51,061 nucleotides of DNA, taken from positions 29,127 to 80,187 of the forward strand of contig JASEFR010000005.1 in NCBI GenBank assembly GCA_030019025.1. The letters run 5' to 3'. Positions 517 to 16,175 of the stretch are shown here, piece by piece (positions within the stretch are counted from its first letter, which is position 1; each line of letters opens with the position of its first letter). A model generated the notes under the pieces. It saw only the letters and a list, made by a program, of their open reading frames with translations, was not told the origin of the DNA and searched no databases. The translations under genes were made by a program, and so were the position numbers. Source of the DNA: a bacterium. Its GTDB lineage: Bacteria > Hydrothermota > Hydrothermia > UBA1063.

Positions 517-1702
517 ATGAGAATTACTGCTTGGTTACTATGTGCGGCTTTGACCTTGCCAGCTACATTATTGGCTCAAGAGGCATTATAAAAACGGAGC
601 CAGCACCTGAAGACATAAGAGAGTCTATAAGCAAACAGCTTTCCAAAGAGGCAAAGAACATCCTGATTGTGAAAGAAGATGATAAAACGCAGCCCAGATT
701 AGTAATTGTAACTTTCGAAGACGGAACCGTTGAAGTGTATAATATGCCTAAAGGCACAGTTTCAGAAGCTGGTACTTCGGGAAGAACCTTCCACACAATC
801 AGCCAGACACTGCTGGGGTTTTCTCTGTACAGCTGGTCATTCCCTTCACTATTTGAACTCAAGGGCAATGCTGCGGGGCAGTAGGACTTTTGACACCTGT
901 GGCGTGGTTTGGCTATTCACTATACTCAGCGAAAAACATCTCGTATCCCGAGGCTCTCGCGGGCTTTCTTGGTGGAATATCAGGCGCAGTGCAAGGTTAT
1001 TATGTGGTAAGTGATGTAAAAGGTGTTTTCCCGTTATCTATGACGTCAAATTTTCTTGACCGCTATATTGTGAGGAAAACTGGAATCTAACCGGGCATCA
1101 TATTTAGAAAATCTGTAAATAGCTATAACTCTTTTTATGAAGCCAACATGCTCAACTTGATAATTACAGGTAGAGGTCTTTCTGAAAATGGAATGAGGGG
1201 AGCCGCACTTTATTCTCTGCTTAAGAGTTATGGAACCTTTTTGCTTTTCAGAAATTCTAAGAATGTTACGGAAGGAGACGCACTATTTGAAGCTAAGCTT
1301 CAAATTCTAGGGGCAGAGTTTTTGCCTCTAATACTTCACAATGTTCAAATGGAAGGACAGGTTAGGGCTTTAACATCGTTCCTAGGATATGCCGCTGGAT
1401 ATGGCGTTGGATTGAAGCTCTCAGAAGACAGAGACCTTTCCTTTGGCAATGCTTTAATAATTGCCTTTTCCCCTGCTCTTGCATCATACCTCGTGGGTGG
1501 ACTTACGTTACTTTTTACTGAAGATATTCCAGACGAAATGCTAAGCATCTATCCTGTCGTTGATTTGGGTCTAACTTATTTACTGTATCGGAACTTCTCA
1601 AGAAGAGAATATCTATCACCTTCCTCGATGCGGATCAATATATCATCTATGGTGGATGTTTTTGTTAAAAACTATGGGATAAGTTTTAATTTTAAGTTTT
1701 AA
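517..1702 (+). pseudogene. Frameshifted exported or membrane protein of unknown function
   Basis: A GGAGG Shine-Dalgarno precedes ATG 517, which opens a clear signal peptide ending in a Leu-Leu-Ala-Gln region, but that frame stops at 589-591. The coding signal continues in another frame from about 580 to 870, shifts again at a GGGG run near 875, and continues in the frame that holds 890-1702, with an in-frame TAA at 1088-1090. Joined together, the pieces give a protein of roughly 390 residues with several hydrophobic Gly/Ala/Leu-rich segments in its second half. I do not recognise the family. Two frameshifts plus a stop make this a decayed gene rather than one sequencing error. Its position beside the truncated asnS marks the degenerate left margin of the island. 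Confidence 0.65.
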
Positions 1703-1738
1703 GGAAAAATCAGAACGGTATTGCCTGTTTTCAACTTT

Positions 1739-2180
1739 TTATCCACCTAATTTTCGCAACTCGTTCGTCGGGCGTATTTTTTCCATTTGGTGCTCTAAGG
1801 GTTTGTTGTAAATGGCTTTCTCTAAAACTGTCTTTAGCTTCTCAATCTTATCAGGATTCTTGCTTCTCGGGATACTTCTTAGATCGTATTTTACAGACGA
1901 TGCTATGCAGGGAATAAGGTTGCCGTCGGCTGTGAGTCTTACGCGGTTGCAAGAACTACAGAATTTGTGAGATAAAGCAGAGATAAGGCCTACGTTCACC
2001 TCGCCTTGAGGTAATTTTATGATAAAATATCTTGCAGGTCCATCACCGAAAGTGCCACTTAGAGGTCTTATTTCTCCCAGTGCTTTCATTCTGTCGTAGA
2101 ATACCTCTTCCCTGACGTAGTCTTCTTTCCATTTTCATCAAAGGGCATTAGTTCGATAAATCCACAGCGGATTTTCTGCA
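1739..2180 (-). pseudogene. Remnant of a second moaA-like radical SAM gene
   Basis: The frame at 1739-2089 encodes the C-terminal part of a MoaA-type GTP 3',8-cyclase. It shows the second iron-sulfur cluster cysteines in the FCSSCNR region, followed by a CIAS segment and a C-terminal Gly-Gly. Further upstream on the same strand, near 2130-2165, a FIELMPF motif typical of MoaA appears in a different frame, so at least one frameshift separates the parts. The N-terminal radical SAM CxxxCxxC half is absent. The intact moaA at 19773-20753 is clearly related but divergent, so this is not a recent copy of it. It is a broken gene within the left margin of the island. Confidence 0.75.
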
Positions 2181-2371
2181 AGTCAACAAATTAGAGGACA
2201 TATATTGAATTGCGAGTTTGAGCGCACCGATACCTTCGCTAGACATTTCAACCCTCATAAGAGACACATAGAAGAAATTCTTTAAATTATTTTTGTTTTT
2301 CCTCAACGCGGGGAAGCAAAAGTGCATTAAGGGTTGGACGTCTATGTCTATTTATTTTAACAAATATAATA

Positions 2372-2400
2372 TTGACAAATCCCGGGAGAAGATATACACT
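2372..2400 (+). promoter_or_regulatory. Sigma-70-type promoter of the first secernin gene
   Basis: A perfect TTGACA -35 box at 2372-2377 is followed after 17 nt by TACACT at 2395-2400, which fits the -10 consensus at four of six positions. The expected start site lies shortly before the AAGGAGGG ribosome-binding site that precedes ATG 2425. Confidence 0.6.
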
Positions 2401-2424
2401 TTAAAAATCTACAAGGAGGGTGCT

Positions 2425-3903
2425 ATGTTAAAAGTACTAAGAAGCACAGGAGTAGTAGTGACTTTAGCAGCTATCCTCTCAGCGCAGGCATCTGCGTGTG
2501 ATACTTGGGTAGCCATGAAAGATGCTACCGCTGATGGCTCAATTATATTAGCAAAGAACAGCGACAGACCTCCTATGGAAGCGCAACCTCTTGTCCACTT
2601 CCCTCGTCAGACATGGAAACCAGGATCCACTGTGAAATGCACATACATTGAAATCCCTCAAGTTAAAGAGACATATGAACATATTGGGTCAAAAATATGG
2701 TGGACGTACGGCTACGAGATGGGAATGAATGAGTTCGGAGTCGCAATTGGGAATGAGGCTGTGTGGTCAAAAGAGCCTTATCAATGGGGTGAGGGTCTTT
2801 TGGGAATGGATTTGTTGCGCCTTGGTTTGGAGAGAGGAAAAACAGCTTATGAGGCAATGCATGTCATAATTGACCTCCTCGAAAAATATGGTCAATGTGG
2901 AGATTGCGAGTATAAGGGAGAATGGGGAAATGCAAATTATCACAACTCATTTATAATTGCGGACCCTAACGAAGCATGGGTTTTGGAAACGGCTGGTAAA
3001 TATTGGGTTGCCAAGAAGATTACGAGCGGCGTATATTCAATTTCCAATATCTACACAATTGAAAATGACTGGGATGAGGCACACCCTAGGTTAATAGACC
3101 ATGCGATCGAAATGGGTTGGACAAAAAGCAGAGCTGACTTCAATTTTGCACGCGACTATGGAGCATACTGGACAAAGGAAGGCGCGAATCCTGGGGACAT
3201 GCAAATAAGACGGAATGCCAGCTTAAGGCGTATGATGGAACAATATGGCAGGATTACAGTGGAAACAATGATGAATATCTGCAGAGATCACCATGAAGGT
3301 ACTGTTGTGGAACCACGTTGGGGTGCAGCTGAAACGTTCTGGGCAACATTATGCATGCATGATAATCCAAAATCTGGATATCACACCGCGGCTTCAATGG
3401 TTGCTCATCTCAGATCCAACATGCCGCCACTCTTGAGGCAGGTATACTGGGCAAGTTTTTCAAACCCCTGTGTAAATGTCTTTAAACCATTCTACTTCCA
3501 AGGCGTGAAAGTACCTGCAAATTACGCAACAGGTACAAGCGATTACAACGCAAACTCACCATGGTGGTGGGCTAACCGCGTAAAACTTCTCTGCGACCTC
3601 AACTACGAGGCACTCGCCCCAGTAGCCCAATCGGTATTCAAGCAGACAGAAAAGTGGGAGCTGAATCGGATTCAGACAGTTGAAGCTACAGCACTCGATC
3701 TAGTTAGGAAAGGGAAGAATGCTGACGCGGTAAACCTTTTACAATCCTTTGTAAACGAGAACTGCACACGAGTCGAAAGTGAATACAAACTCTTAAACGA
3801 AATTCTTGAAAAAATGGTCAAATCATTAGGAATAAAATATCTCTATCTTGATTACTTGAAGAGCTGGACGAAACAAAAGAAAGTTCCTCTTCCAATAGAA
3901 TAA
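2425..3903 (+). CDS. Exported secernin-family (peptidase C69) Ntn hydrolase, copy 1
   Basis: The product has 492 residues. It starts at ATG 2425 because an AAGGAGGG ribosome-binding site lies just upstream; a longer open frame back to 2293 has no such support. Residues 1-24 form a signal peptide ending Ala-Ser-Ala, directly followed by Cys25-Asp-Thr. That is the conserved N-terminal nucleophile block of secernins and C69 dipeptidases, followed by the KNSDRP motif. Further family blocks are the MGMNEFGVAIGNEA region, a GMDLLRLGLER helix and the WVLETAGK region. Removing the signal peptide would itself expose the catalytic Cys. The likely role is amide or peptide hydrolysis outside the cytoplasm. 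It is paralogous to 6806-8314, with a glycerate kinase/GntP pair between them on the other strand. The exact substrate is unknown. Confidence 0.88.
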   Translation: MLKVLRSTGVVVTLAAILSAQASACDTWVAMKDATADGSIILAKNSDRPPMEAQPLVHFPRQTWKPGSTVKCTYIEIPQVKETYEHIGSKIWWTYGYEMGMNEFGVAIGNEAVWSKEPYQWGEGLLGMDLLRLGLERGKTAYEAMHVIIDLLEKYGQCGDCEYKGEWGNANYHNSFIIADPNEAWVLETAGKYWVAKKITSGVYSISNIYTIENDWDEAHPRLIDHAIEMGWTKSRADFNFARDYGAYWTKEGANPGDMQIRRNASLRRMMEQYGRITVETMMNICRDHHEGTVVEPRWGAAETFWATLCMHDNPKSGYHTAASMVAHLRSNMPPLLRQVYWASFSNPCVNVFKPFYFQGVKVPANYATGTSDYNANSPWWWANRVKLLCDLNYEALAPVAQSVFKQTEKWELNRIQTVEATALDLVRKGKNADAVNLLQSFVNENCTRVESEYKLLNEILEKMVKSLGIKYLYLDYLKSWTKQKKVPLPIE

Positions 3904-3920
3904 CACAACTGCAAGGCGAA

Positions 3921-3954
3921 ACAATGGGCCCGCAGGAACTTGCGGGCCCATTGT
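3921..3954. terminator. Bidirectional hairpin between convergent genes
   Basis: A perfect 14-bp stem (ACAATGGGCCCGCA at 3921-3934 with its complement at 3941-3954) encloses a 6-nt loop. It lies between the convergent stops of the secernin gene and the glycerate kinase gene. The following T-tracts are short, but the position and stem strength fit a shared terminator. Confidence 0.8.
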
Positions 3955-3970
3955 TTCTCACAGCTCCTCT

Positions 3971-5326
3971 CTATTTTGTCTGAGCTACTAGAACAATCTG
4001 AACATCCATTACATTCGTGTTGGTTGGACCAGTAATATATAAGTCTCCAACTTTTTTGAAGAAATTATACGAGTCATTATTTTTTAAATATTCTTGTGGA
4101 TTTAATCCTAACTTCCGTGCTCGAACCACGGTAGTGCCGTCTACAATAGCACCAGCAGCATCCGTGGGGCCATCTGTCCCATCGGTACCTGCGCTCATAA
4201 GTACAATGTTGTTTTCGCCTTCGAGTAAAATAGCTGCTGAAAGACACAACTCCTGATTCCTTCCACCGAGACCATTCCCACTGACCGTAACTGTAGTTTC
4301 GCCTCCGCATATTATGCAAGCAGGAGGAGATATCGGGTTACCTGATTTCATTGCCTCTTTTGCAACCGCACACAACACTTTTGCAACTTCTCTAGCTTCC
4401 CCCTCGACCATCGAAGAGAGAATAATTGCATTATATCCTAGATCCTTTGCTTTTTCTTTTATCGCTTGCAGAGCAATGTAATTATTCCCAACAATAAAAT
4501 TATAAGTCTTACGGAATACATCCTCTCCTGGTTTTGGAGTCTCCGGAATTTTCCCTTGAAGGCCCATTTCGATCCTTGCAACCACCGATTTCGGAACTTT
4601 ATCCTTAATATTATATTTCTCCAGTACATTAAAAGCATCAGCGAAAGTAGTCTCATCCGGAACTGTAGGCCCTGAAGCAATTGTATCAAGACGGTCACCA
4701 ATCACGTCTGAAAGTATGAGGCTTACTACTGTCGCAGGATAAGCGAGCCTGGATAACTGTCCGCCTTTAATTTCCGAAATATGTTTTCGCACTGCATTCA
4801 TATCCCGAATATTAGCCCCACAGGCTAAAAGAATCTTAGTTGTGAAAATCTTTTCATCCAGAGTAATACCATCTGCGGGATAAGGCAGTAAAGCTGACCC
4901 TCCTCCTGATATTAGAAAGAAAACAAGATCATCTTCTGTTGCACTTTTAAGGAAATTTAGTATTTCCTTAGCAGCTTTAAATCCATTTTCATCGGGAACA
5001 GGATGTCCGGCCTCAACAATCCTTATTTTATTTAGTTTTGCTGTATACCCGTATTTTACAACTATCAGGCCATCTGTTATCTTGTCCCCCAGTAATTCTT
5101 CAAGTGCTTTTGCCATAAAGGCAGTCGCTTTCCCCATGCCAAAAACATAAATTCTTTTAAATTGCCGAAGATCAAATGACTGTGAATCGCTGGTCCCATT
5201 TTTTATAAAAATAGAATCGTCTGATATCCTCACTGTATTTTTAATTATGTGATACGGATCGACGGCGAGTAATCCGTATCGAAACAGCTCTTTAATATCC
5301 CTACGTAAATCTACTATTGACTTCAT
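3971..5326 (-). CDS. Glycerate 2-kinase (GckA/TtuD, MOFRL family)
   Basis: The product has 451 residues, normal for the GckA-type glycerate kinases that convert D-glycerate to 2-phosphoglycerate. The N-terminal DUF4147 half contains VFGMGKA and the nucleotide-binding ISGGGSALLP region. The C-terminal MOFRL half contains GGETTVTVSGNGLGGRNQE and SAGTDGTDGPTDAAGA. Its start codon overlaps the stop of the upstream GntP permease by 4 nt (ATGA), so the two are translationally coupled. This suggests that the permease brings in glycerate or a related sugar acid that this enzyme phosphorylates. Family assignment is firm; the physiological substrate is inferred from the pairing. Confidence 0.92.
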   Translation of the reverse strand: MKSIVDLRRDIKELFRYGLLAVDPYHIIKNTVRISDDSIFIKNGTSDSQSFDLRQFKRIYVFGMGKATAFMAKALEELLGDKITDGLIVVKYGYTAKLNKIRIVEAGHPVPDENGFKAAKEILNFLKSATEDDLVFFLISGGGSALLPYPADGITLDEKIFTTKILLACGANIRDMNAVRKHISEIKGGQLSRLAYPATVVSLILSDVIGDRLDTIASGPTVPDETTFADAFNVLEKYNIKDKVPKSVVARIEMGLQGKIPETPKPGEDVFRKTYNFIVGNNYIALQAIKEKAKDLGYNAIILSSMVEGEAREVAKVLCAVAKEAMKSGNPISPPACIICGGETTVTVSGNGLGGRNQELCLSAAILLEGENNIVLMSAGTDGTDGPTDAAGAIVDGTTVVRARKLGLNPQEYLKNNDSYNFFKKVGDLYITGPTNTNVMDVQIVLVAQTK

Positions 5327-6666
5327 AGCAATATAAGTGATATTATAAATATTACAATCATTGATGTGATCCCCATAACTATCGTCGCTGTAGTATATAC
5401 CTTCAGAGCAATTGGAACATCGAGATTGGAGAATCTCGAAACAACCCAGAAATAACTGTCATTCGCATGGGACGCAACCATTGAGCCAGAACCCATTGCC
5501 AACAGAGCTAGCACTGGACCCCACCCAGCCGCCAAACCTAAACTATGCAACATAGGAGCAACAATTGCTGCAGTGGTAATAATAGCAACTGTAGAAGAAC
5601 CCTGCGCTGTTTTCAGAGCCGAAGCTATGAGAAACGGAAGGAAAATTCCCAAGTGCAGATTTGTAAGCACCCCGCCGATGTAATCACCGATATGGGTAAC
5701 TTTCAAAATATTCCCAAATACGCCACCCGCAGCCGTAATAGCCAAGATAGAACCTGCTTTTTCAACACCATCAAACAACCATTTATCTAATACATTTTTA
5801 TTCCACGACTTGACCAGTGTAAGTGAAAAAAAGACCCCAATTAACAAAGCGAGCTGCGGTTCGCCCGCAAATATCACAAAATTTTTAAAAAAGCCACTTC
5901 CGATCGAGATACCTGGCATTAATATAATTGATTTTGTCGCAATGAGGATCACTGGTAATATTATTGGTATAAATGAATGCAGAGGGCTTGGTAATTTCTT
6001 ATATTGCTCTTGAAGTTGTTCATACCTAACTTCGGATTCAGCAGGTACAAAATATTTTCTTCCCACTGTTACCGCCCAAATGTATCCAACAGCGGCAGGA
6101 AACAGCGTAACAGGCAAGCCCAAGAGCATTACACGACCAAGGTCCTCACCTACTATTCCAGCCGCGGCTGTTGCACCAGGATGAGGGGGTATTAAACAAT
6201 GAACTGAATATAAAGCTGAACCAAGTGCCACCGCCATCACACTCATGCTGACTTTCGCTCTTTCTGCCAGAGCCTTATTCAGAGTGCTCAAAACCACAAA
6301 TCCTGAGTCACAAAATATAGGTATTCCCACAATGTAACCGCTTATGCTCATCACTAAAGGTATTAACCGGGTCCCTACAATCTTTAAAATAAAATTAGCC
6401 ATACTAAAAGCAGCTCCCGTTCTCTCAAGAATTACGCCGATTGTTGTGCCGCATATTATCACGATTCCGATAGATGCCATAGTGTTTCCAAACCCTTCTT
6501 TGATGGCTTCTAGGATTTTTTCGGCCGGTAAACCAGCAGCAATACCCACTCCAAGGGCAGTAATGAGCAAAACATAAAATGCATTCATCCTCACTACTGC
6601 CGTCATTATTATTATAAACAAAATTGCCACGAGGAAAATTATGAACAACCAGATACCATCAACCAT
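5323..6666 (-). CDS. GntP-family sugar-acid:proton symporter, copy 1
   Basis: The product has 447 residues, the normal length for GntP/GluP transporters, and is almost entirely hydrophobic with about 12 membrane segments. Family blocks include IPIFCDSGFVVLS, LIPPHPGATAAA, LKTAQGSSTVA and SHANDSYFWVVS. Known family members carry gluconate, glycerate and other hydroxy-acids. Translation starts at ATG 6666 behind a GAGGAGG Shine-Dalgarno and a consensus promoter on the minus strand. The next gene is a glycerate kinase overlapping by 4 nt, which makes glycerate the best guess for the substrate. A paralogue is encoded at 9398-10741. Confidence 0.93.
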   Translation of the reverse strand: MVDGIWLFIIFLVAILFIIIMTAVVRMNAFYVLLITALGVGIAAGLPAEKILEAIKEGFGNTMASIGIVIICGTTIGVILERTGAAFSMANFILKIVGTRLIPLVMSISGYIVGIPIFCDSGFVVLSTLNKALAERAKVSMSVMAVALGSALYSVHCLIPPHPGATAAAGIVGEDLGRVMLLGLPVTLFPAAVGYIWAVTVGRKYFVPAESEVRYEQLQEQYKKLPSPLHSFIPIILPVILIATKSIILMPGISIGSGFFKNFVIFAGEPQLALLIGVFFSLTLVKSWNKNVLDKWLFDGVEKAGSILAITAAGGVFGNILKVTHIGDYIGGVLTNLHLGIFLPFLIASALKTAQGSSTVAIITTAAIVAPMLHSLGLAAGWGPVLALLAMGSGSMVASHANDSYFWVVSRFSNLDVPIALKVYTTATIVMGITSMIVIFIISLILL

Positions 6667-6684
6667 TATCTCCTCCTCGCTAAA

Positions 6685-6713
6685 ATTATAAACATATCCA
6701 ACAGATGTGTCAA
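6685..6713 (-). promoter_or_regulatory. Perfect consensus sigma-70 promoter of the GntP-glycerate kinase operon
   Basis: Read on the minus strand, TTGACA (6713-6708) is followed by exactly 17 nt and TATAAT (6690-6685). The start codon of the GntP gene lies at 6666, with a Shine-Dalgarno between. Confidence 0.85.
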
Positions 6714-6714
6714 G

Positions 6715-6724
6715 TTGTTAACAA
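6715..6724. promoter_or_regulatory. Candidate operator palindrome between divergent promoters
   Basis: TTGTTAACAA is a perfect 10-bp palindrome that directly abuts the -35 box of the minus-strand promoter. It lies in the 37-bp segment between the two divergent -35 boxes, a natural place for a regulator to control both operons. Regulation by the nearby two-component system is possible but unproven, and a short AT-rich palindrome can arise by chance. Confidence 0.35.
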
Positions 6725-6750
6725 ATTTATACATTTTTTTTATAAATAAC

Positions 6751-6779
6751 TTGACATAACATCCCCATTATCTTATAAT
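6751..6779 (+). promoter_or_regulatory. Perfect consensus sigma-70 promoter of the second secernin operon
   Basis: TTGACA at 6751-6756, a 17-nt spacer and TATAAT at 6774-6779 match the consensus at all 12 positions. The AAAGGAGGT ribosome-binding site and ATG 6806 follow at a suitable distance. Confidence 0.87.
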
Positions 6780-6805
6780 TTATCTACCTTAAAAGGAGGT
6801 TTCAA

Positions 6806-8314
6806 ATGCTTAAATCAGCAAAAACCGTAGGAGCGGTGATACTAGCCACAATCGCAAGCATTGCAATTGTGGCTGCCTGTGACACCGGTGTGGCTCTCCC
6901 AGATGCGACAAAATCCGGATATACTATCCTAGGGAAAAACAGCGACAGACCGATATTTGACTGCCAGCCACTTGAGTTTCACCCCAGACAAAAGTGGCCT
7001 AAGGGAACAATGCTGAACCTTGAATACATTTCTATCCCACAAGTAGAAGAAACGTATGCTACCATTGGGTCAAGCCCATATTGGTGCTGGGGGTACGAAG
7101 AGGGAATAAACGAGTATGGGGTTGCGATAGGGAATGAGGCAATCTTCACAAAAACATTCAGGGAAGCCGCAAAGGCTTATAAAGAATCTGGCAAGGGAGA
7201 ACTTGGCCTACTTGGAATGGACATCCTTCGCCTCGCACTTGAAAGGTCTAAAACCGCAAGGGAAGCAGTAGAATGGATCGGAAAACTAGTGGAAACCTAC
7301 GGACAATTTGGTTCAGGTGTACCAACAGCCGATCACGCTAGCGGAGGTTACGATAATTCATATATTGTAGCAGATTGGAAAGAAGCATGGGTAGTTGAAA
7401 CCTATGGTAAACGCTGGGTAGCCAAAAGGATTACTCACGGAACGTATGCAATCTCAAACGAGCCAAGCATTACTACACAATGGGATCTGGCCAGCTCAGA
7501 CCTGGTGGATTATGCAGTCAAAAAGGGATGGTGGCCTAAGGATAGAACAGATGAATTCAATGTTGCACTTGCATATGTTGATTTCTATACCCCGGCTCAG
7601 GTATCACATATAAGAGCCATGAGATACAGACAACTATTAAAAGAGAGAGAAGGCACTATTGATGAAAATTGGTTCAAGAGAATCTTGAGAGACCATTATG
7701 AAACTACATTCCTCGAGGGGCCGCAATTTAACCCAGCGCTTCCTGATTTCCTCACAATTTGTATGCATTCCTCACCAGCAAACTTCACATGGGGAAATAC
7801 TGCAAGTTCAGCAATATTCATACTCCCACCCCCTGGAAGCAATCACCTTGCTGTAATGTGGTGGGCACCTGTGGCACCCTGTAACAGCGTATATATACCT
7901 GTGTTTGCAAATATCACAAGACTTCCGGATTTTGCCACGAATGCTGGAGAGGCAGGAACAAAAGTTACTCCACCAAATGAAGCCAAACCAGATAAATACT
8001 CACCGAACTCACTTTGGTGGGAAGTCAGAAAATTGCTTGATCTAACTAAAGGAGATGAAATAGGTAGCACATGGCACATAAGACATCCTATAGTTAGAAA
8101 GGCTTTTGATGACCTAGAGGCCGAATTCGCAGCGGGCTTAAAGGTTGTTGAAGCAAAAGCGGTAAAACTTTACGCACAAGGGAAAAAGAAAGAAGCGGAT
8201 GAACTACTAACAAAATATACAGAGGAATGCTTCAAAAAGGCACTGGATACAGTTAGAGAACTTCAAAAAGAAGTCGTGAAATATGGAAAACCTTTATCAC
8301 CAAACATGGAGTAA
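6806..8314 (+). CDS. Exported secernin-family (peptidase C69) Ntn hydrolase, copy 2
   Basis: The product has 502 residues and starts at ATG 6806 behind AAAGGAGGT. Residues 1-24 are a signal peptide ending Ile-Val-Ala-Ala, followed by Cys25-Asp-Thr, the N-terminal nucleophile block of secernins, and KNSDRP. Other family blocks are the GYEEGINEYGVAIGNEA region, GLLGMDILRLALER and WVVETYGK. The sequence before the Cys also fits a lipoprotein lipobox (V-A-A-C). Lipidation of that Cys would conflict with its catalytic role, so secretion by signal peptidase I or lipid anchoring must be tested. The porin-like gene downstream is probably in the same transcript, because the next terminator lies after it. 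Substrate unknown. Confidence 0.88.
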   Translation: MLKSAKTVGAVILATIASIAIVAACDTGVALPDATKSGYTILGKNSDRPIFDCQPLEFHPRQKWPKGTMLNLEYISIPQVEETYATIGSSPYWCWGYEEGINEYGVAIGNEAIFTKTFREAAKAYKESGKGELGLLGMDILRLALERSKTAREAVEWIGKLVETYGQFGSGVPTADHASGGYDNSYIVADWKEAWVVETYGKRWVAKRITHGTYAISNEPSITTQWDLASSDLVDYAVKKGWWPKDRTDEFNVALAYVDFYTPAQVSHIRAMRYRQLLKEREGTIDENWFKRILRDHYETTFLEGPQFNPALPDFLTICMHSSPANFTWGNTASSAIFILPPPGSNHLAVMWWAPVAPCNSVYIPVFANITRLPDFATNAGEAGTKVTPPNEAKPDKYSPNSLWWEVRKLLDLTKGDEIGSTWHIRHPIVRKAFDDLEAEFAAGLKVVEAKAVKLYAQGKKKEADELLTKYTEECFKKALDTVRELQKEVVKYGKPLSPNME

Positions 8315-8325
8315 AATGTTAATCT

Positions 8326-8352
8326 GCGCGGAGGCGAGAGTCGCCTCCGCGC
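8326..8352. other. Perfect 12-bp GC-rich hairpin between secernin 2 and porin genes
   Basis: GCGCGGAGGCGA (8326-8337) and its exact complement (8341-8352) are separated by GAG. No T-tract follows, so it is not a typical intrinsic terminator. It may stabilise the upstream mRNA or partly attenuate transcription into the porin gene. It is much more GC-rich than its surroundings. Confidence 0.65.
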
Positions 8353-8372
8353 ACTCCAAAATGGGAGGAACC

Positions 8373-9320
8373 ATGAAAAAGTTTTTGATGTTTACATTAT
8401 TTTTATTGATAATCCCCGCAAAAAGGATTAGCGCAAAAGTAAGCGGTTTCGTAATATCAAACTACGAATATACAATCGATGGTCCAAAAACAGGTAAATT
8501 TTACATGCCCTTTGTATGGTTAATATTCAGTGATAACTTTGACGAACAATTCGGTTTCAATGTATGGTATGACTTTCAAAATTCCGGATTCCTAATGGGC
8601 TGGGTAGATATCAAATTAGCGAACTATTTCAATGTTAGTGCAGGAAAATTAGTAGCACCTTCAAATCAGGAATGGTACACATACCCACCTGACCAGCTAA
8701 CCCCATTTTTCTCAGAAGTCTCTGGATTAGTTGGTGTGCTTGGAAAGGGCATGGATTATGGTTTAGGAATTTCCGGAAATGTCTCAAAGATTACTTATAA
8801 TTTGGCTGTTTTACAGGGAGATGATAATGACTACAAAGATTTCTGTGGAAGAATCACTCTGAATTTATTCGACGGATTTTACCTTTCAGGGCATACATAT
8901 CAAATAAGGGCTTATGCAAGTGGAGAGAAAAGGGCTTTTTCAGGTATAGACATCAATTACACCGGTTTCAACTTTGACTTACGCGCAGAATATGACTTTG
9001 GAATGGCAGATACCTTATTCACCATGGGTCCCAATAATATTAACCCCCAAAAGTTTAATGGATATTATGTGATGATCGGCTATTCAAAGCAGATTTCAAG
9101 TAAAATTTCCCTTCAACCTGTGGTGAAGTATAGTGTCTTTGAACCAAAAGTTAGTGGGTTCAGCCCAGTCAAAAACCTTATCGGGGGATTGAATTTGATT
9201 GTTGGCAACAAACTGAAAGTTATGATTGCCTATAGAAACATATCTGATGACTCAAGTGTATGCTACACCGATGCACAGAAAAAGGGATCAGTCGTTGTAA
9301 GAACACAGCTCTCTTTCTGA
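8373..9320 (+). CDS. Outer-membrane porin-like beta-barrel protein
   Basis: The product has 315 residues. I chose ATG 8373 because GGGAGG precedes it and it opens a signal peptide (MKKFLMFTLFLL...). The longer frame from 8283 overlaps the secernin gene and lacks a leader. The mature part alternates short amphipathic strands and ends in Phe, typical of outer-membrane barrels. It resembles the protein at 31715-32629: both have an early SGF/SGY-x-YEYT-x-DG segment and a later F-x-x-x-NNITPY or QLTPFF segment. It is best called a phosphate-selective-porin-like (OprP/O) protein. Co-transcription with the secernin hydrolase suggests uptake of its substrate or product. Specificity is unknown. Confidence 0.7.
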   Translation: MKKFLMFTLFLLIIPAKRISAKVSGFVISNYEYTIDGPKTGKFYMPFVWLIFSDNFDEQFGFNVWYDFQNSGFLMGWVDIKLANYFNVSAGKLVAPSNQEWYTYPPDQLTPFFSEVSGLVGVLGKGMDYGLGISGNVSKITYNLAVLQGDDNDYKDFCGRITLNLFDGFYLSGHTYQIRAYASGEKRAFSGIDINYTGFNFDLRAEYDFGMADTLFTMGPNNINPQKFNGYYVMIGYSKQISSKISLQPVVKYSVFEPKVSGFSPVKNLIGGLNLIVGNKLKVMIAYRNISDDSSVCYTDAQKKGSVVVRTQLSF

Positions 9321-9341
9321 GGTAGATCCTTATTAGTATTC

Positions 9342-9381
9342 AAAGCTTAAGGGGAGAACGCTTGTTCTCCCCTTAAGCTTT
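9342..9381 (+). terminator. Strong intrinsic terminator after the porin gene
   Basis: An 18-bp perfect stem (9342-9359 with 9364-9381) surrounds a 4-nt GCTT loop, and its right arm ends in TTT followed by an AT-rich stretch. It closes the secernin 2-porin operon just before the next promoter. Confidence 0.87.
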
Positions 9382-9390
9382 TATTATAAT
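9362..9390 (+). promoter_or_regulatory. Candidate promoter for a leaderless GntP2-kinase-regulator operon
   Basis: TATAAT lies at 9385-9390, only 7 nt before ATG 9398, and a weak TTGTTC -35 lies 17 nt upstream at 9362-9367, inside the right arm of the preceding terminator. No Shine-Dalgarno precedes 9398. Transcription would therefore begin at or next to the start codon. Confidence 0.5.
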
Positions 9391-9397
9391 TATAGCG

Positions 9398-10741
9398 ATG
9401 CTATATATACCCTTATCGTTGATTGCAATTGCCGTTGCGATGCTCCTTATTATACTATCAATAGTAAAATTTCGATTGCATACATTTCTGATTTTAATTT
9501 TTTCAGCATACATATTCGGGATTATAAGCGGGATGCCGTTAAGAGAAGTCGTTGATAGAATTTGTGAAGGATTTAGCTCCACTCTTGCAGCCATTGGGAT
9601 TGTGATTGCATTCGGTTCAGTAATTGGTGTATTTTTGGAAAAATCTGGTGGGGCGGTTTCTATAGCACAAACTATTATTAAAGTTGTTGGAAAATCAAGA
9701 AGCCCTCTCGCAATGGCAATTTCTGGCTTCATAATTTCCATTGGAGTTTTTTGTGACTCAGGTTTTATTATTTTGGCCCCTCTGAATAGGGCATTGGCAA
9801 AAGAAACGAAAATAAGCTTAGCAACATATGCTACAGCATTAAGTTTGGGGTTATATTCCAGTCACACCCTCATACCACCTACTCCTGGTCCTTTAGCTTC
9901 ATCAGAAATACTTGGAGCAGATGTAGGAACGGTAATTCTTATAGGTTTTTTAGTGGCTCTTCCCACAACAATTGTAGGATATCTCTTCGCAAAATATTTT
10001 GCATCAAGATACGACATTTCTATTGATACCAGAAAACACCACGAAAATACTAAATCTTCAAACTACACTCTACCAAACCCACTACTAGCGATATTGCCTA
10101 TAATAGTTCCTATACTCTTAATTCTTCTTAGATCATTTTCAACTATGTCACCTTGGATAGGAACCATACCCCAGCTGTCAAATATAGTAGACTTCTTAGG
10201 ACATCCTGTAACAGCTATGATGACTGGAATGCTTATTTCTTTCACATTAGAAAAAAATCCCAAACAATTAGGCCAGAAAGGGTGGATTGCAGAAGGTTTT
10301 TCGAATTCCGCGATGATTATTTTAATCACAGGTGCAGGTGGTAGCCTTGGAAACGTCCTGCGCTACAGCAAATTGCTTGATATCGTGACACATTTCCTCC
10401 TCGGATCTCAATTATCGTTGTTATTACCCTTCCTGATTTCGTTGATTTTAAAAACTGCTCAGGGATCGTCTACAGTTGCAATGATAACAACTGCCTCGAT
10501 CATGCAGCCGATCTTAGGTACTCTTGGACTTTCGTCTCCCATTGGAAGAGTATTAACTGTGTGTTCCATCGCTACTGGTAGCATGATCGTGTCACATGTA
10601 AATGATAGCTACTTCTGGGTGGTTTCCCAGTTTTCAAACATGGATTTCCCGACAGCCTATAAAACCCATACCCTTGGCACTTTGCTGACAGGATTGTTCT
10701 CATTTTGTCTTGTCCTAATATTGGGATTAATACTCTTATAA
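9398..10741 (+). CDS. GntP-family permease, copy 2
   Basis: The product has 447 residues, the same length as the first GntP protein, with about 12 membrane segments. Shared family blocks are CDSGFIILAPLNRALAKE, LIPPTPGPLA, LKTAQGSSTVAMITTA and SHVNDSYFWVVSQFSNMD. The replacement of HPGATAAA by TPGPLASS suggests a different substrate preference from copy 1. No Shine-Dalgarno is visible; a TATAAT lies 7 nt before the ATG. A histidine kinase gene follows after 10 nt, so transporter and sensor are probably co-expressed, and the transported compound may be the signal. Confidence 0.92.
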   Translation: MLYIPLSLIAIAVAMLLIILSIVKFRLHTFLILIFSAYIFGIISGMPLREVVDRICEGFSSTLAAIGIVIAFGSVIGVFLEKSGGAVSIAQTIIKVVGKSRSPLAMAISGFIISIGVFCDSGFIILAPLNRALAKETKISLATYATALSLGLYSSHTLIPPTPGPLASSEILGADVGTVILIGFLVALPTTIVGYLFAKYFASRYDISIDTRKHHENTKSSNYTLPNPLLAILPIIVPILLILLRSFSTMSPWIGTIPQLSNIVDFLGHPVTAMMTGMLISFTLEKNPKQLGQKGWIAEGFSNSAMIILITGAGGSLGNVLRYSKLLDIVTHFLLGSQLSLLLPFLISLILKTAQGSSTVAMITTASIMQPILGTLGLSSPIGRVLTVCSIATGSMIVSHVNDSYFWVVSQFSNMDFPTAYKTHTLGTLLTGLFSFCLVLILGLILL

Positions 10742-10751
10742 GCGCATAGGT

Positions 10752-13040
10752 ATGCATATTTTAACCCTCCTGATTTTGGTGCTTTGTTCGAATGTACCAA
10801 GCCGGAACAGCCTGTTCGACGTCAAAGTTGAAATGGAATTTAATGGGCCATATTACTCCTTAACGTGTAACATTATAGGGAATGCTGATCCGGAATTGAT
10901 AATAATTGACAGTAGTCAAAACAAGTTAACAATATTGAGTAGTACGCTTAAAACAATAACTACCGTTATTCCTGCAGAAAATCCAGATCATGAACGCCTA
11001 TTTCTTGCATCCGCTACGTCGACTGACGAGACTTTTCAGACTTCGAATTTAAAGTATTTAATCATGTTTTCAAAAGATAGGAAAAAATTATACTACCTCA
11101 ACCATAATCTCACGCTACAAGCATTGAACCTTCAAGAATTTGCTATTAAAACGGATAGCACGTTATACTGTTTTGTCCAAAACGAAAACAACCCTAATAA
11201 AATAATTTTTTTATTCATTTCTACAGAAGGAAATTATACAATCCTAACAACACTCACCTCAAAAGAGATGGAGAAGCACGAATTATTACCAGGAAAAGTT
11301 ATACACGCAGCTTCATCTAAGGGTAAAATTTACTTTTGCTTAAAAACTGACACAGAACTAGTGTTTTATTCAAGAGACTCGACTTCCTCTCAAGAAATAT
11401 TCAGGATGCCTGCAGATTCTGTTCTACATGCAATTATTGTTGACACTTCTGCAATAATTTTCACTAAGAGCGCAAAAAAACAGATTATTGCAACAATTAC
11501 CGGCCTTGGCTCCCGCGTGTCTCAGCAAATACTTTTTACAGTCACCGGGTCAAAACTTAATACAATTGGGCTGGTAGAGGGTAAACCCTTTAAATTAGCG
11601 ATTGTTTATGACGATTCTTGTTTTGCACTGTTTTATAACTCAAATCTTTTTCTTCGCAATTTCAGCGAGGAAATTTCTAGCGTTTCTTTAGTTTCAAATG
11701 CTCTCGGAGAAAAAAGTATATATTCAATTATAAGGTTTAAAAATTCACCAGATTTGACAATGTTCGACCTTTTCGGAAACGAAATTGTGAGATTTAAAAA
11801 TACAAACTCTGTTTACGCTTTTCATGGCAAGGGAAAAAATGGCCTCATATTGAATAGACCCAATGGGGTTCAGATAGTTTCAGTGATACCTAACATCCTG
11901 CTTATCAAAAAGAAACTTCTAATCGCCGTCATCGTGCTTGGTTCATTAATTCTACTACCATCAATTGCTTATGTTATATCCCGAATTGATTTTGATATTT
12001 TTGTACACAAAACTTTTCTTTCGTTCTCGGACGAGCTTGTAATTGTGATCGACAAAAAAAAACTTGTTCGGTACATTAATGGCAAAATGAAAGCATTCCT
12101 GATTCCATTTATAAGTCCAAATACACATTTTCAAGTGCATATAAAATACCTCCTCGAAGATCCACGATTAAAAGATATCCTTGATTTGATTCTTCTTTCG
12201 ATCAAAGAAAATCGAACCCTGGAGAAATTAATTGAAATAAACGTGGGAGAGAAGCATCTTTTTATTTTCAGGTGCATACCACTTAGAAGACATTTAAAGA
12301 CGGGGGCCTATCTGTGCATTATGAAAGATGTAACTAAAATAATGGAGGAGCGACACATTATCTCTTGGGCGCAACTCACCAGAAATATCCTTCATGAGGT
12401 CAAAAATCCCTTATCTTCAATATTAATTGCCGTTGAAAGGATCAAAAAGAAATTAAGCCAAGAAAATGTAAAGACAAGAGAAAACCTAGATAACTACCTA
12501 AAAATCATAAAAATGGAAGCAGAAAGAATTAACAACCACCTTCGAAATCTAATCAAGTTATACTTAAATAAACAGCTAGATTTAAGTAAATATGATATAT
12601 GTAAATTGATCACCGAGGTTCTCGAATCTGCAAAAATCAACTATCCTAATGTCTCCTTTCGGTCTTATTGCCCAGATAAGATCATTCTCCCCTTGGATGC
12701 AGAATTATTCAAAATGGCGATATCCAACTTGATCAACAACTCTATAGAGGCAGTTAACCCTCATAATGGCTATGTTGAAATTAAAGTCGAAAGAACGACT
12801 ACAAGTCTTGTAACCATCATAATAAAAGACAACGGCATTGGAATAGACGAATCAGAGCTCAACAAAATATTTGAGCCTGGCTACAGTACCAAGACCACAG
12901 GGTTTGGTCTTGGACTTACAATTACTAAGGAAATTATAGAAAGTCTCGGGGGCTCCATAAATGTTGAGAGCAAGAAAAACAAGGGAACAACTGTAATATT
13001 GAAATTAAAATACGAGGAGGAAATTGATGCGCAAGTATAA
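10752..13040 (+). CDS. Membrane sensor histidine kinase with a large extracytoplasmic domain
   Basis: The product has 762 residues. It begins with a hydrophobic signal or anchor. An extracytoplasmic region of about 360 residues follows, rich in short repeated beta-strand-like segments (possibly a propeller, inferred), and then a membrane segment at about 388-410. A PAS-like cytoplasmic region (about 420-535) precedes the HisKA helix with His548 in an LHEVKNPL H-box. The ATPase domain shows NLINNSIEA, DNGIGIDE and GFGLGLTI motifs. The gene lies 10 nt after GntP2 and overlaps the response regulator by 14 nt. This is a complete kinase, probably autophosphorylating at His548 and signalling to the next gene product. 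The ligand is unknown. Confidence 0.9.
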   Translation: MHILTLLILVLCSNVPSRNSLFDVKVEMEFNGPYYSLTCNIIGNADPELIIIDSSQNKLTILSSTLKTITTVIPAENPDHERLFLASATSTDETFQTSNLKYLIMFSKDRKKLYYLNHNLTLQALNLQEFAIKTDSTLYCFVQNENNPNKIIFLFISTEGNYTILTTLTSKEMEKHELLPGKVIHAASSKGKIYFCLKTDTELVFYSRDSTSSQEIFRMPADSVLHAIIVDTSAIIFTKSAKKQIIATITGLGSRVSQQILFTVTGSKLNTIGLVEGKPFKLAIVYDDSCFALFYNSNLFLRNFSEEISSVSLVSNALGEKSIYSIIRFKNSPDLTMFDLFGNEIVRFKNTNSVYAFHGKGKNGLILNRPNGVQIVSVIPNILLIKKKLLIAVIVLGSLILLPSIAYVISRIDFDIFVHKTFLSFSDELVIVIDKKKLVRYINGKMKAFLIPFISPNTHFQVHIKYLLEDPRLKDILDLILLSIKENRTLEKLIEINVGEKHLFIFRCIPLRRHLKTGAYLCIMKDVTKIMEERHIISWAQLTRNILHEVKNPLSSILIAVERIKKKLSQENVKTRENLDNYLKIIKMEAERINNHLRNLIKLYLNKQLDLSKYDICKLITEVLESAKINYPNVSFRSYCPDKIILPLDAELFKMAISNLINNSIEAVNPHNGYVEIKVERTTTSLVTIIIKDNGIGIDESELNKIFEPGYSTKTTGFGLGLTITKEIIESLGGSINVESKKNKGTTVILKLKYEEEIDAQV

Positions 13041-14337
13041 TATTTTAATTGTCGACGACGAAGAACATATCCGAACCTTACTTAAAGAAAGTTTAGAAGA
13101 TGAGGGGTATGAAGTTTCAACAGCTAATAACGCCGTAATAGCACTTGATTTAGTAAAGGACAATAATTTTGACCTGATCCTATTAGATCTGCGTATGCCT
13201 ATAATAGATGGAGTAGAATTTCTTACAAAAATAAGGGAAATAAATAGTATCCTCCCCGTAATTGTAATTACGGGACACGGTACTATAAAAGACGCAATAG
13301 CAACTGCACGCTTAGGGATTTTCGATTTTATAGAAAAACCCTTAGATTTCGAAAGGCTTCTGTCTACTATTAAAAATTGCCTAAAAGACTATGAACTCAA
13401 AACCCAGCGAGTGCTATTTCTCTGGGAACGCGAAAATGAGGTATTTGAATCAAAATCGATGCAGCGTGTGAAACTCTACCTTGAGAAAGAGTGTGATTCT
13501 CCTAAGATAAACCTGATTTTCTCCCAGAAAGGAGGGGACAGGCTAACTCCTGCTCGATTTCTTCACGAAATTTCAGGCAGGAAAAGCGGGACTTTCAAAT
13601 ATCTTAATTTAGCACTTATCCCCCCTAAACAACATAACTCAGCTGTTTTTGGACCCTATGGTGTTGTTTCAAATATTACTACAGGAACGATTCTTCTCGA
13701 TATGATAGAAGAGTCCTCTGACGAACTTCAAGAAGAAATCCTAAACTTATTTGCAAAAAATATGCTTGAAGAAAACAAGGGCGTTTCAAACTCTCTCAAA
13801 ATAGTCTGTGGTACCGTATCAGATATAAAGATACTTGCAAGGGAGGGAAAATTCAACAATGCATTATCCAACATACTTGAAGACTCTAAAATCGTTATAC
13901 CACCCCTAAGTATGCGAAAAGATGATATTCCTTATATTTTCAATCAATACGTAAAGTACTACACAAATCTGTACAACATACCGCTAAAAACTATTCAAAA
14001 AGACGTAATTACGCAAATTAAAAAATATCCCTGGCCTGGAGACATTCAAGAATTGAAGAACTTTGTGCGTAACCTATGCCTAACCTTCCCGGAAAAAACC
14101 ACTATTGACCTGGAAGATCTAATGGAAGTATGGACCGAACATAAGCACAAATTTCAATTTGAGCTATCAGGACAGATTCCATTGAAAGAAGCCAAAGAGC
14201 AGTTTGAGAAAGAATATATAACCTATATATTAAACGAAAACAATTGGGGTATAAGAGCCACCGCCAAAATTTTAAAAATCGAACGGACTTATCTATATTC
14301 AAAAATCAAGAGATACAACCTCCAAAAGTTCAAATAG
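13027..14337 (+). CDS. NtrC-like response regulator with a degenerate AAA domain
   Basis: The product has 436 residues from ATG 13027, which sits behind GAGGAGG; a TTG one codon earlier is also possible. Residues 1-120 form a receiver with DD at 10-11, phospho-acceptor Asp54 and the conserved Lys in FIEKP. Residues 140-360 align with the sigma-54 AAA+ domain, but the Walker A motif is replaced by a segment without GxxGxGKE, and the GAFTGA loop is missing between AVFGPYG and TTGTILLD. Later blocks (PPLSMRKDDIPY and WPGDIQELKNFVR) remain. A C-terminal Fis-type helix-turn-helix is intact. It probably cannot hydrolyse ATP or activate sigma-54 and more likely acts at sigma-70 promoters. It overlaps its kinase gene. 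Confidence 0.88.
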   Translation: MRKYNILIVDDEEHIRTLLKESLEDEGYEVSTANNAVIALDLVKDNNFDLILLDLRMPIIDGVEFLTKIREINSILPVIVITGHGTIKDAIATARLGIFDFIEKPLDFERLLSTIKNCLKDYELKTQRVLFLWERENEVFESKSMQRVKLYLEKECDSPKINLIFSQKGGDRLTPARFLHEISGRKSGTFKYLNLALIPPKQHNSAVFGPYGVVSNITTGTILLDMIEESSDELQEEILNLFAKNMLEENKGVSNSLKIVCGTVSDIKILAREGKFNNALSNILEDSKIVIPPLSMRKDDIPYIFNQYVKYYTNLYNIPLKTIQKDVITQIKKYPWPGDIQELKNFVRNLCLTFPEKTTIDLEDLMEVWTEHKHKFQFELSGQIPLKEAKEQFEKEYITYILNENNWGIRATAKILKIERTYLYSKIKRYNLQKFK

Positions 14338-14561
14338 AAGTATAGGCCTCAATGAGAATTTACAATTTTTAAAATCACTGGTTATTTGCAGACCACTTTA
14401 GACAAGTAAAACGCATAGGATCTAATAGGATCTAACCTGACCGATGGTTAATCTCAAATCAACTGTGAATCCTACCATTCCAGAAAATCTTAACCTAAAA
14501 CATTTAATCAACCCAACTTTCTCGTTATTTTCACAAATAGCTTATATCTTATGAGGTTATT
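14338..14561. other. Non-coding right margin of the island
   Basis: No gene is visible. The stretch contains a 10-bp tandem duplication of TAGGATCTAA at 14416-14435, which runs into the right copy of the 21-bp imperfect repeat. No clear terminator follows the response regulator gene. Confidence 0.5.
14427..14447 (+). repeat. Imperfect 21-bp repeat, right copy
   Basis: This copy matches 413-433 at 18 of 21 bases in the same orientation. Its first bases are part of a tandem pair of TAGGATCTAA. It may mark the right boundary of the inserted segment. Confidence 0.4.
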
Positions 14562-14756
14562 TCATATCGTAGGGTCAACACCAAATTCTATACCCAGTTC
14601 CTTTGCAAATCTTCCCGTTCCCACACCTACCTCAAGACCGATTCCATCAGGCACAACTTTCTTTAAGGCCTTCACCTCTGACTGAAAGAGATAATAATTC
14701 CTTTCATACCACTGGTCACAATCATCCGCAAATAGATCAAAGACTTCAATTTCCAT
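14562..14756 (-). pseudogene. N-terminal fragment of a class I SAM-dependent methyltransferase
   Basis: The 64-residue frame has a typical small-methyltransferase start and reaches SAM-binding motif I (LEVGVGTGRFA) and the following GVDP. It then stops at 14562-14564. Normal family members are about 200 residues or longer, so the catalytic remainder is missing. No continuation is evident downstream. It lies between the response regulator and asnS, at the right margin of the island. It is best treated as a truncated remnant. Confidence 0.6.
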
Positions 14757-14832
14757 ATTTGAATTATGGTGCTTTTATTGTGGATTTTCAGCTCAAGCCC
14801 TTAAATAACCTGATTTTTAAAACACTCATCCA

Positions 14833-14861
14833 TTGAACAGACGCCCATTCCATCGTAAAAT
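14833..14861 (+). promoter_or_regulatory. Promoter of intact asnS, probably leaderless
   Basis: TTGAAC at 14833-14838, a 17-nt spacer and TAAAAT at 14856-14861 are followed by only 6 nt before ATG 14868. No Shine-Dalgarno sequence is present. The geometry predicts transcription starting at or beside the start codon. Confidence 0.6.
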
Positions 14862-14867
14862 TAAATC

Positions 14868-16175
14868 ATGGGAAAGTTTATTTATATCAGCGACTTAAAA
14901 CACCACATCGGTGAAGACGTAGAGATCCGGGGATGGATTTACAACAAACGTTCCTCGGGTAAGGTCAGATTTGTCATAGTAAGAGATGGTAGCGGATTCC
15001 TCCAATGCGTAATGGTCAAGGGTCAGATTGATGACAAATATTTTGACCTTTTTGACGAACTTACTCTTGAAACATCTACTATCGTTCGGGGAAAGGTGAG
15101 GGCTGACGAGAGAGCACCGGGCGGAGTGGAATTAGACCTCAACTACATTGAAATTGTGAGCAAATCTGTAAATTTCCCCATTTCGAAAGTGAGAGAGGAC
15201 AACATCCCGGACCCCGGCGTCCTGCTCCCCATAAGGCATCTCTGGCTCAGAACGAGAAGACAGTGGGCAATAATGAGAATAAGACATACAATAGAAAAGG
15301 CGATACACGACTACTTTGATAACCTCGGATTTATAAGGATTGACTCCCCCATTCTCACACCCGCCGCCTGCGAAGGGACCACGACCCTTTTTGAAACCGA
15401 CTATTTCGGTGAAAAAGCCTATCTATCACAATCGGGCCAGCTCTATCAGGAAGCTGCCTGTATGGCACACGGTAAAACTTACTGCTTTGGACCCACTTTC
15501 AGGGCTGAAAAATCAAAAACCAGAAGGCATTTAATGGAATTCTGGATGGTGGAACCGGAAATAGCCTATGCGGAATTGCCCGATGTCATGGAAAACGCCG
15601 AAGGTTTGATTACCTATATTGTGGAAAAAGTTCTGGAGACAAGGCAAGAAGAGTTAAAAATATTAGAGAGGGATATTTCCAAACTTGAAAGGATTAAAAA
15701 GCCTTTCCCGAGAATCACTTATACCGAAGCTATTGAACTTTTGCAGAAGAAAGGATTTGATATAAAATGGGGAGATGATTTTGGTGGCGACGAGGAGACC
15801 GCCATTTCTGAAGAATTTGATAAACCCGTCATCGTTCACCGCTATCCAGCCAATATCAAGGCCTTCTATATGAAACGAGACCCCGAAAATCCGGATCTTG
15901 CTCTGGCAATGGACATCCTCGCTCCGGAAGGCTACGGGGAAATTGTGGGTGGCTCGCAGAGGGAGGATGACCTTGAAACACTCATTCAGAGAATTAAAGA
16001 ATACAATCTACCACAGGAAGCTTTTGAGTGGTATTTGGACTTGCGGAGGTATGGAAGCGTACCCCACGGTGGTTATGGGCTCGGGCTCGAAAGGACGGTG
16101 GCCTGGATCTGCGGGCTAAGGCATGTCCGCGAAACGATCCCATTCCCGAGGATGCTGGAAAAGATCTATCCATGA
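14868..16175 (+). CDS. asnS: Asparaginyl-tRNA synthetase
   Basis: The product has 435 residues, normal for bacterial AsnRS. An N-terminal OB-fold anticodon-binding domain occupies about residues 1-105. The class II catalytic domain follows, with motif 2 around [21 protein letters not shown], which is characteristic of AsnRS, and motif 3 around [14 protein letters not shown] near the C-terminus. It charges tRNA-Asn in the cytoplasm. The start lacks a Shine-Dalgarno and follows a -10-like box by 6 nt. The stop overlaps the folK-ogt start by 4 nt. Residues 107-208 are duplicated at the very start of the window as a truncated copy. Confidence 0.97.
15184..15490 (+). repeat. Direct repeat copy 2, inside intact asnS
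   Basis: These 307 bases match window positions 1-307 in the same orientation with two synonymous differences (15410 and 15434). The distance between equivalent positions is 15,183 bp. The repeat continues upstream of the window by an unknown length, so the true repeat may be longer than 307 bp. Confidence 0.95.

Follow-up and report, generated by a model that had tools for sequence, protein, structure and literature searches.

A block of eight genes

The window, a stretch of 51,061 nucleotides from a genome assembly of 1.73 Mb, carries eight intact genes at 2425-14337. Their number, families and positions had been proposed in a first-pass annotation, and open reading frames, Pfam and NCBIfam agree with it. 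Together with candidate promoters and hairpins, the genes are laid out as follows.

2372-2400, + strand: sigma-70-like promoter before C69a, TTGACA-17-TACACT (10/12 matches; consensus match only)
2425-3903, + strand: C69a, exported secernin-type Ntn hydrolase, 492 aa (Pfam PF03577, E 4e-27)
3971-5326, - strand: putative glycerate 2-kinase of the MOFRL type, 451 aa (PF13660, E 2e-89; PF05161, E 3e-43)
5323-6666, - strand: GntPa, gluconate-family permease, 447 aa (PF02447, E 4e-93)
6685-6713, - strand: sigma-70 promoter for GntPa-kinase, TTGACA-17-TATAAT (12/12 consensus)
6751-6779, + strand: sigma-70 promoter for C69b, TTGACA-17-TATAAT (12/12 consensus)
6806-8314, + strand: C69b, second exported secernin-type Ntn hydrolase, 502 aa (PF03577, E 5e-14)
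8325-8353, + strand: strong GC-rich hairpin without a T run in the C69b/porin-like gap (z -6.65 for 8320-8372)
8373-9320, + strand: outer-membrane barrel-like protein, 315 aa (signal peptide, strand pattern, C-terminal Phe)
9342-9381, + strand: terminator-like 18-bp hairpin in the porin-like/GntPb gap (z -7.86)
9398-10741, + strand: GntPb, second GntP permease, 447 aa (PF02447, E 7e-101)
10752-13040, + strand: sensor histidine kinase with a large N-terminal domain (HisKA and HATPase_c)
13027-14337, + strand: NtrC-family response regulator with a degenerate AAA domain and a Fis-type HTH (Pfam, NCBIfam, alignment)

From this layout, the eight genes fall into three or four transcription units rather than one: C69a alone; GntPa with the MOFRL kinase, divergent from C69b with the porin-like gene; and GntPb with the two regulatory genes behind a strong hairpin. 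GntPa overlaps the start of the kinase by 4 bases, both on the - strand, and the GntPa-kinase and C69b promoters, each a perfect sigma-70 consensus, point away from each other. The hairpin at 9342-9381 ends 16 bases upstream of the GntPb start. By eye, a possible promoter (TTGTTC-17-TATAAT, in 9342-9400) overlaps it and no ribosome-binding site is visible for GntPb; this gene may lack a leader or be under attenuation. Bordering the block on the left, a C-terminal MoaA fragment (1742-2131, - strand) shares 48% identity with the intact MoaA found at 19773-20768 and is not covered by an intact ORF; it therefore looks like a pseudogene remnant. On the right, a single ORF (16028-17089, + strand) joins HPPK (FolK) and O6-methylguanine-DNA methyltransferase domains in an unusual fusion.

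The N-terminal part of the sensor kinase matches no family above the Pfam cut-off. Its partner, while keeping the receiver and the Fis-type HTH, has lost the ATPase and sigma-54 contact motifs of the NtrC family: in alignment with an intact relative, both Walker A (GxxxxGK) and GAFTGA are missing, so that the regulator, judged by its motifs, probably binds DNA without sigma-54 activation. rpoN, encoding sigma-54, is present in the genome. Control of the module by sigma-54 was rejected, given the missing motifs and the sigma-70 consensus promoters that flank the genes. A search of the three promoter regions for a shared operator motif returned nothing above shuffled controls, and there is no SdaR/CdaR regulator among the genes read around the block. 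Since no common operator emerged, the two-component pair is likely local to GntPb. The first-pass annotation had assigned it to the whole set; against this speak the want of a shared operator and the absence of the pair from the related block described below.

Fold and family of the encoded proteins

C69a and C69b are 38% identical to each other and GntPa and GntPb 42%, which makes both pairs true paralogues, as had been suggested. The hydrolases score 95.7 and 52.6 bits against a PF03577 cut-off of 23. A signal peptide can be read from the sequence of both, in keeping with their proposed export, and it stops directly before the catalytic Cys (before Cys25-Asp26 in C69a), so that signal peptidase alone could expose the nucleophile. 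Cys25 is invariant in 27 sequences, and an Asp follows the catalytic Cys in 98 of 99 bacterial and archaeal C69 rows, giving the N-terminal Cys-Asp dyad of the secernin type. We also considered that the Cys belongs to a lipoprotein and rejected this reading: a lipobox ('VAAC') fits C69b alone, neither C69a nor the two copies of the Kmv43 genome introduced below.

An AlphaFold model of C69a (pLDDT 86.8) superimposes on the C69 dipeptidase of Lactobacillus farciminis (PDB 5iau) over 411 aligned residues, with VIA Z 36.9, rmsd 2.8 and 19% identity. Residue 25 of the model aligns with residue 9 of 5iau, so the two share the Ntn fold with its N-terminal Cys nucleophile in place. Isopenicillin N acyltransferase, NAAA, penicillin V acylase and bile-salt hydrolase are the next structural matches, again with residue 25 at the catalytic Cys; the C69 dipeptidase and the last three of these are all amide-bond enzymes. 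In C69a the nucleophile opens a Cys-Asp-Thr motif, whereas the L. farciminis enzyme has Cys-Thr-Ser. Moreover, the WOR-3 proteins are exported and, at 105.8 and 73.8 bits, stay far below the curated cut-off of 250 for the C69 dipeptidase equivalog (NF033678).

The kinase matches the solved MOFRL glycerate 2-kinases 2b8n and 1x3l near full length (367-393 bits), with DUF4147 and MOFRL domains spanning the whole protein, whereas it falls short of two curated NCBIfam equivalog cut-offs (288 and 247 bits against 550 and 670), whose models describe other lineages. Likewise, the two permeases belong to PF02447 and score 269.7 and 288.7 bits, below the 292.75 of TIGR00791 (gluconate:H+ symporter); both weakly match the NCBIfam DsdX model. 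Because kinase and permeases score under these equivalog or subfamily cut-offs, we treat their specificity as putative. The eighth product had been called a porin. Signal peptide, strand pattern and C-terminal Phe uphold its barrel-like character, but no Pfam cut-off is reached, the best match being to Porin_O_P at a sub-threshold E of 0.048. A second barrel-like protein at 31715-32629 (+ strand) resembles it by eye, and the porin of the module may therefore be a local paralogue.

Might the hydrolases be ordinary dipeptidases? They would then free serine or D-serine from peptides, which GntP would import in the manner of DsdX; inside, serine would be converted to hydroxypyruvate and glycerate, and only then would the kinase act. 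The Pfam family is indeed a peptidase family, among solved structures a C69 dipeptidase comes closest, the permeases have their weak DsdX matches, and a serine hydroxymethyltransferase-family gene adjoins GntP in Kmv43. We nevertheless judge this unlikely: the dipeptidase cut-off is widely missed, Cys-Asp in 98 of the 99 rows stands against Cys-Thr in the L. farciminis dipeptidase, and a reading of kinase-bearing loci brought to light neither an aminotransferase nor a hydroxypyruvate reductase.

Distribution in WOR-3 and pairing with glycerate kinases

The close match of the window to L016, a WOR-3 bacterium, and searches of the phylum place it in WOR-3. Among 147 WOR-3 genomes, secernin-type C69 occurs in two only (G000 and G123), and GntP in the same two; two more weak C69 matches represent other C69 types. 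Neither family was found in three congeners and one other member of the family. Since both are confined to two genomes and missing from the congeners, the block probably arrived by horizontal transfer, which is a simpler reading than repeated loss. MOFRL kinases are commoner (35 of the 147 genomes). The genome of the window holds a second copy (C15:15627-16778), which is 44% identical to the kinase of the block, as are, approximately, the single copies of the congeners; the kinase of the block is therefore an extra copy, and its closest relative is that of G123.

This second genome, Kmv43 (G123; loci L016/L119), carries C69b, a different barrel-like protein and C69a, then the MOFRL kinase and GntPa on the opposite strand, followed by the serine hydroxymethyltransferase-family gene, which adjoins GntPa. 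Identities to the window are 73% for C69a, 71% for GntPa, 61-62% for the kinase and 61% for C69b, and the relative order C69a-MOFRL-GntPa is common to both. GntPb, the two-component genes and the porin of the window are absent from the Kmv43 block. By sequence comparison, the core conserved in a second WOR-3 lineage is thus two C69 hydrolases, a MOFRL kinase and a GntP permease, and the two-component system, the second GntP and the porin are not conserved parts. The complete module that had been proposed is accordingly smaller.

Outside WOR-3, we examined up to 10 kb on each side of 79 loci with secernin-type C69, collected by one scan of genome contigs. Whether secernin-type C69 keeps company with glycerate kinases had been named as a point on which the original proposal could fail. 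It does, in at least eight lineages from four phyla and with two unrelated kinase families. GarK (PF02595) lies beside C69 in a Clostridium MAG (L012), Thermosediminibacteraceae (L028 and L041), a Robertmurraya MAG (L046) and a member of the Dehalococcoidia (L052); the MOFRL family, unrelated to GarK, does so in Kmv43 (L016), L060 and Eubacterium callanderi (L077). Further searches added L106, a close relative of L077 that repeats its pairing. By phylum, the pairings outside WOR-3 comprise L012, L028/L041, L046 and L077/L106 in the Bacillota, L052 in the Chloroflexota, and L148 and L151/L152/L154 in the Synergistota. Among the last, L148 has a MOFRL kinase, then enolase, and C69; L151 and L152 have CdaR, GarK, a DctM-like transporter, an AstE/AspA-like amidohydrolase, DUF6305 and an exported C69; and L154 has CdaR, GarK and C69, as seen by tblastn. 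The Pfam scan covers L148 and L151 of these. A CdaR/Diacid_rec regulator is present at L012, L028, L041 and L151. In each of four genomes (G149-G152), the kinase next to C69 is the sole PF02595 gene. One further pairing, in the Dehalococcoidia (L060), was set aside as possible chance: its MOFRL gene is convergent and 530 bp away with a gene between, and its C69 belongs to the kinase-free clade.

Every kinase in the kinase-bearing loci of the 79-locus scan lies 3-530 bp from C69; multiplying the chance probabilities of such distances over this first scan gives about 10^-13, provided that the loci count as independent. When 99 C69 proteins are arranged in a tree, 14 of 45 rows on one side of the root and 1 of 54 on the other carry the label 'kinase adjacent', which changes 8 times as against 14.1 in shuffles, none of 500 being as low. 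Fisher's test gives P 8e-5 on rows and 1e-3 on lineages (8/24 against 1/40, counted by hand). C69b is placed in the kinase-associated clade. We regard these statistics as descriptive, because the rows share ancestry and motifs of the window itself served to seed the scan. ABC ATPases aside, few neighbour clusters are spread over as many phyla as the GarK-type kinases. No glycerate kinase is nearby in many same-clade C69s of Planctomycetota, Poribacteria, Methylomirabilota and Acetomicrobium, and searches for C69 relatives in 338 Bacilli, in 392 genomes from the order to which L012 belongs and in 26 from the class of Thermosediminibacter brought no kinase pairings beyond those already known. 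Within the class of E. callanderi, only G541 (L106), a close relative, shows the pairing again; the remaining 12 C69 loci of this class fall in the kinase-free clade.

Conceivably, the C69 genes merely hitch-hike with a plain D-glycerate uptake unit and have an unrelated role, given that GntP and a glycerate kinase occur by themselves in Shewanella (PMC2996990) and that the majority of C69 loci are without a kinase. The pairing with two non-homologous kinases in eight lineages, within 3-530 bp in the scanned loci, and the clustering of the label on the C69 tree (0/500 shuffles as low) make this improbable. Because the co-occurrence recurs, it supports the idea, at the level of gene content, that hydrolase, importer and glycerate kinase act as a coupled route.

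Two observations on the surroundings of C69 may be added. In L057 and L046 (11767-15088), genes near C69 resemble, by eye, those for bacterial microcompartment proteins. In L149 (Synergistota), two different C69 genes (1378-3264 and 5507-6970) have a transporter and a CdaR-type gene as neighbours, which recalls the paired hydrolases of the window.

A possible route from a bound precursor to glycolysis

How might these proteins work together? From the fit of the C69a model to amide enzymes, we infer cleavage of an amide or ester outside the cytoplasm, release of a hydroxy acid, its import by GntPa and its phosphorylation. Specifically, the two secernin-type hydrolases would be exported, and removal of the signal peptide would expose their N-terminal Cys nucleophile; they would cut an amide- or ester-linked precursor, and the small 2-hydroxy acid so released, D-glycerate most likely, would be brought in by GntPa and turned by the MOFRL kinase into 2-phosphoglycerate, which joins glycolysis at the enolase step. 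In Gram-positive relatives, the precursor may instead be imported whole and cut inside, because their C69 has no signal peptide. We therefore tentatively describe the locus as a glycerate-scavenging module with a hydrolase front end, probably acquired by transfer. The outline of hydrolysis, import and phosphorylation in the first-pass annotation is supported by the recurrent pairing; drawn to include GntPb, the sensor pair and the porin, which are not conserved, it was too wide. D-glycerate as GntP cargo and 2-phosphoglycerate as product are suggested by the protein families and their published relatives, and glycerate itself as the product of C69, like the kind of bond cut, is more conjectural.

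GntP permeases carry several sugar acids. Thus, C69 might release another hydroxy or sugar acid, such as lactate, threonate or a gluconate-like compound, with the kinase acting on that or serving a side branch. A LarA-family gene (lactate-racemase family) lies directly upstream of C69 in L081, and altronate dehydratase-family and KdgT genes lie downstream in L041. In Acetomicrobium (L057/L078, about 6400-16600), a class II aldolase, a 2-hydroxyacid dehydrogenase and an FGGY kinase precede C69, and the product of C69 may therefore differ there. For the group as a whole we consider a different acid quite unlikely, as glycerate is indicated by two unrelated kinase families that, as far as their members have been characterised, use it as substrate, and in one case by enolase. 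For the module as we propose it, a hydroxy-acyl amide, which the first-pass annotation had named alongside a glyceryl amide as a possible substrate, would fit the amide-hydrolase-family neighbours (AstE/AspA-like in L151, acetamidase in L081) and the LarA-family gene. We did not find a gene for a precursor that carries glycerate; mannosylglycerate or mannosylglyceramide, known in Rhodothermus (PMC1224877), is, speculatively, a candidate natural glycerate source in thermophiles.

Part of such a route has been described. In Shewanella, the GntP-family permease GrtP and the kinase GarK carry growth on D-glycerate, encoded in a grtP-garK operon with SdaR (PMC2996990). The window resembles this system in that GntPa and the kinase share one operon with a 4-base overlap, and the two are neighbours in Kmv43 too; the Bacillota and Synergistota loci additionally have a regulator of the CdaR/SdaR type (Diacid_rec). 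It differs in having MOFRL in place of GarK and a two-component system in place of SdaR, and in adding two C69 hydrolases and a barrel-like protein. Of the set in the window, the half made of GntP and glycerate kinase is known, and our literature search found no relevant paper joining glycerate kinase with secernin or peptidase C69. What looks new is the hydrolase front end, the new element being the recurrent pairing of secernin-type C69 with a glycerate kinase, of which we found no description. This pairing could reveal the origin of D-glycerate in the environment, a question that the Shewanella study did not settle.

More broadly, one clade of secernin-type C69 may represent hydrolases of an undescribed class whose action sets glycerate free from some common natural compound; some bacteria would export them and others keep them in the cytoplasm. 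This generalisation is rather doubtful, but if true it would supply an unknown natural source of D-glycerate and suggest a chemistry for the human secernins, which are substrate orphans. The motifs of the human proteins presumably resemble those of the other, kinase-free C69 clade, which also holds Asgard archaeal proteins. Human SCRN1-3 belong to family C69, and a 2022 review lists their substrates as unknown, including those of SCRN2 and SCRN3 (PMC9140057). SCRN3 carries a glyoxylyl group at Cys6 and requires Asp7 for it (PMC9285064), the same N-terminal Cys-Asp dyad that is found in 98 of 99 rows here. Bacterial C69 could thus be non-hydrolytic, the dyad maturing into a glyoxylyl electrophile with some other step feeding glycerate. 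We regard this as very improbable: the activity of SCRN3 itself is unknown, fold and Cys of the proteins studied here match amide hydrolases, and in exported forms the maturation would need to proceed outside the cytoplasm. As for the hydrolytic reading, the pairing offers a lead on the role of the secernin-type C69 family, and a genomic context shared by four phyla, with glycerate kinases of two unrelated families, lends itself to a specific and cheap test of secernin function.
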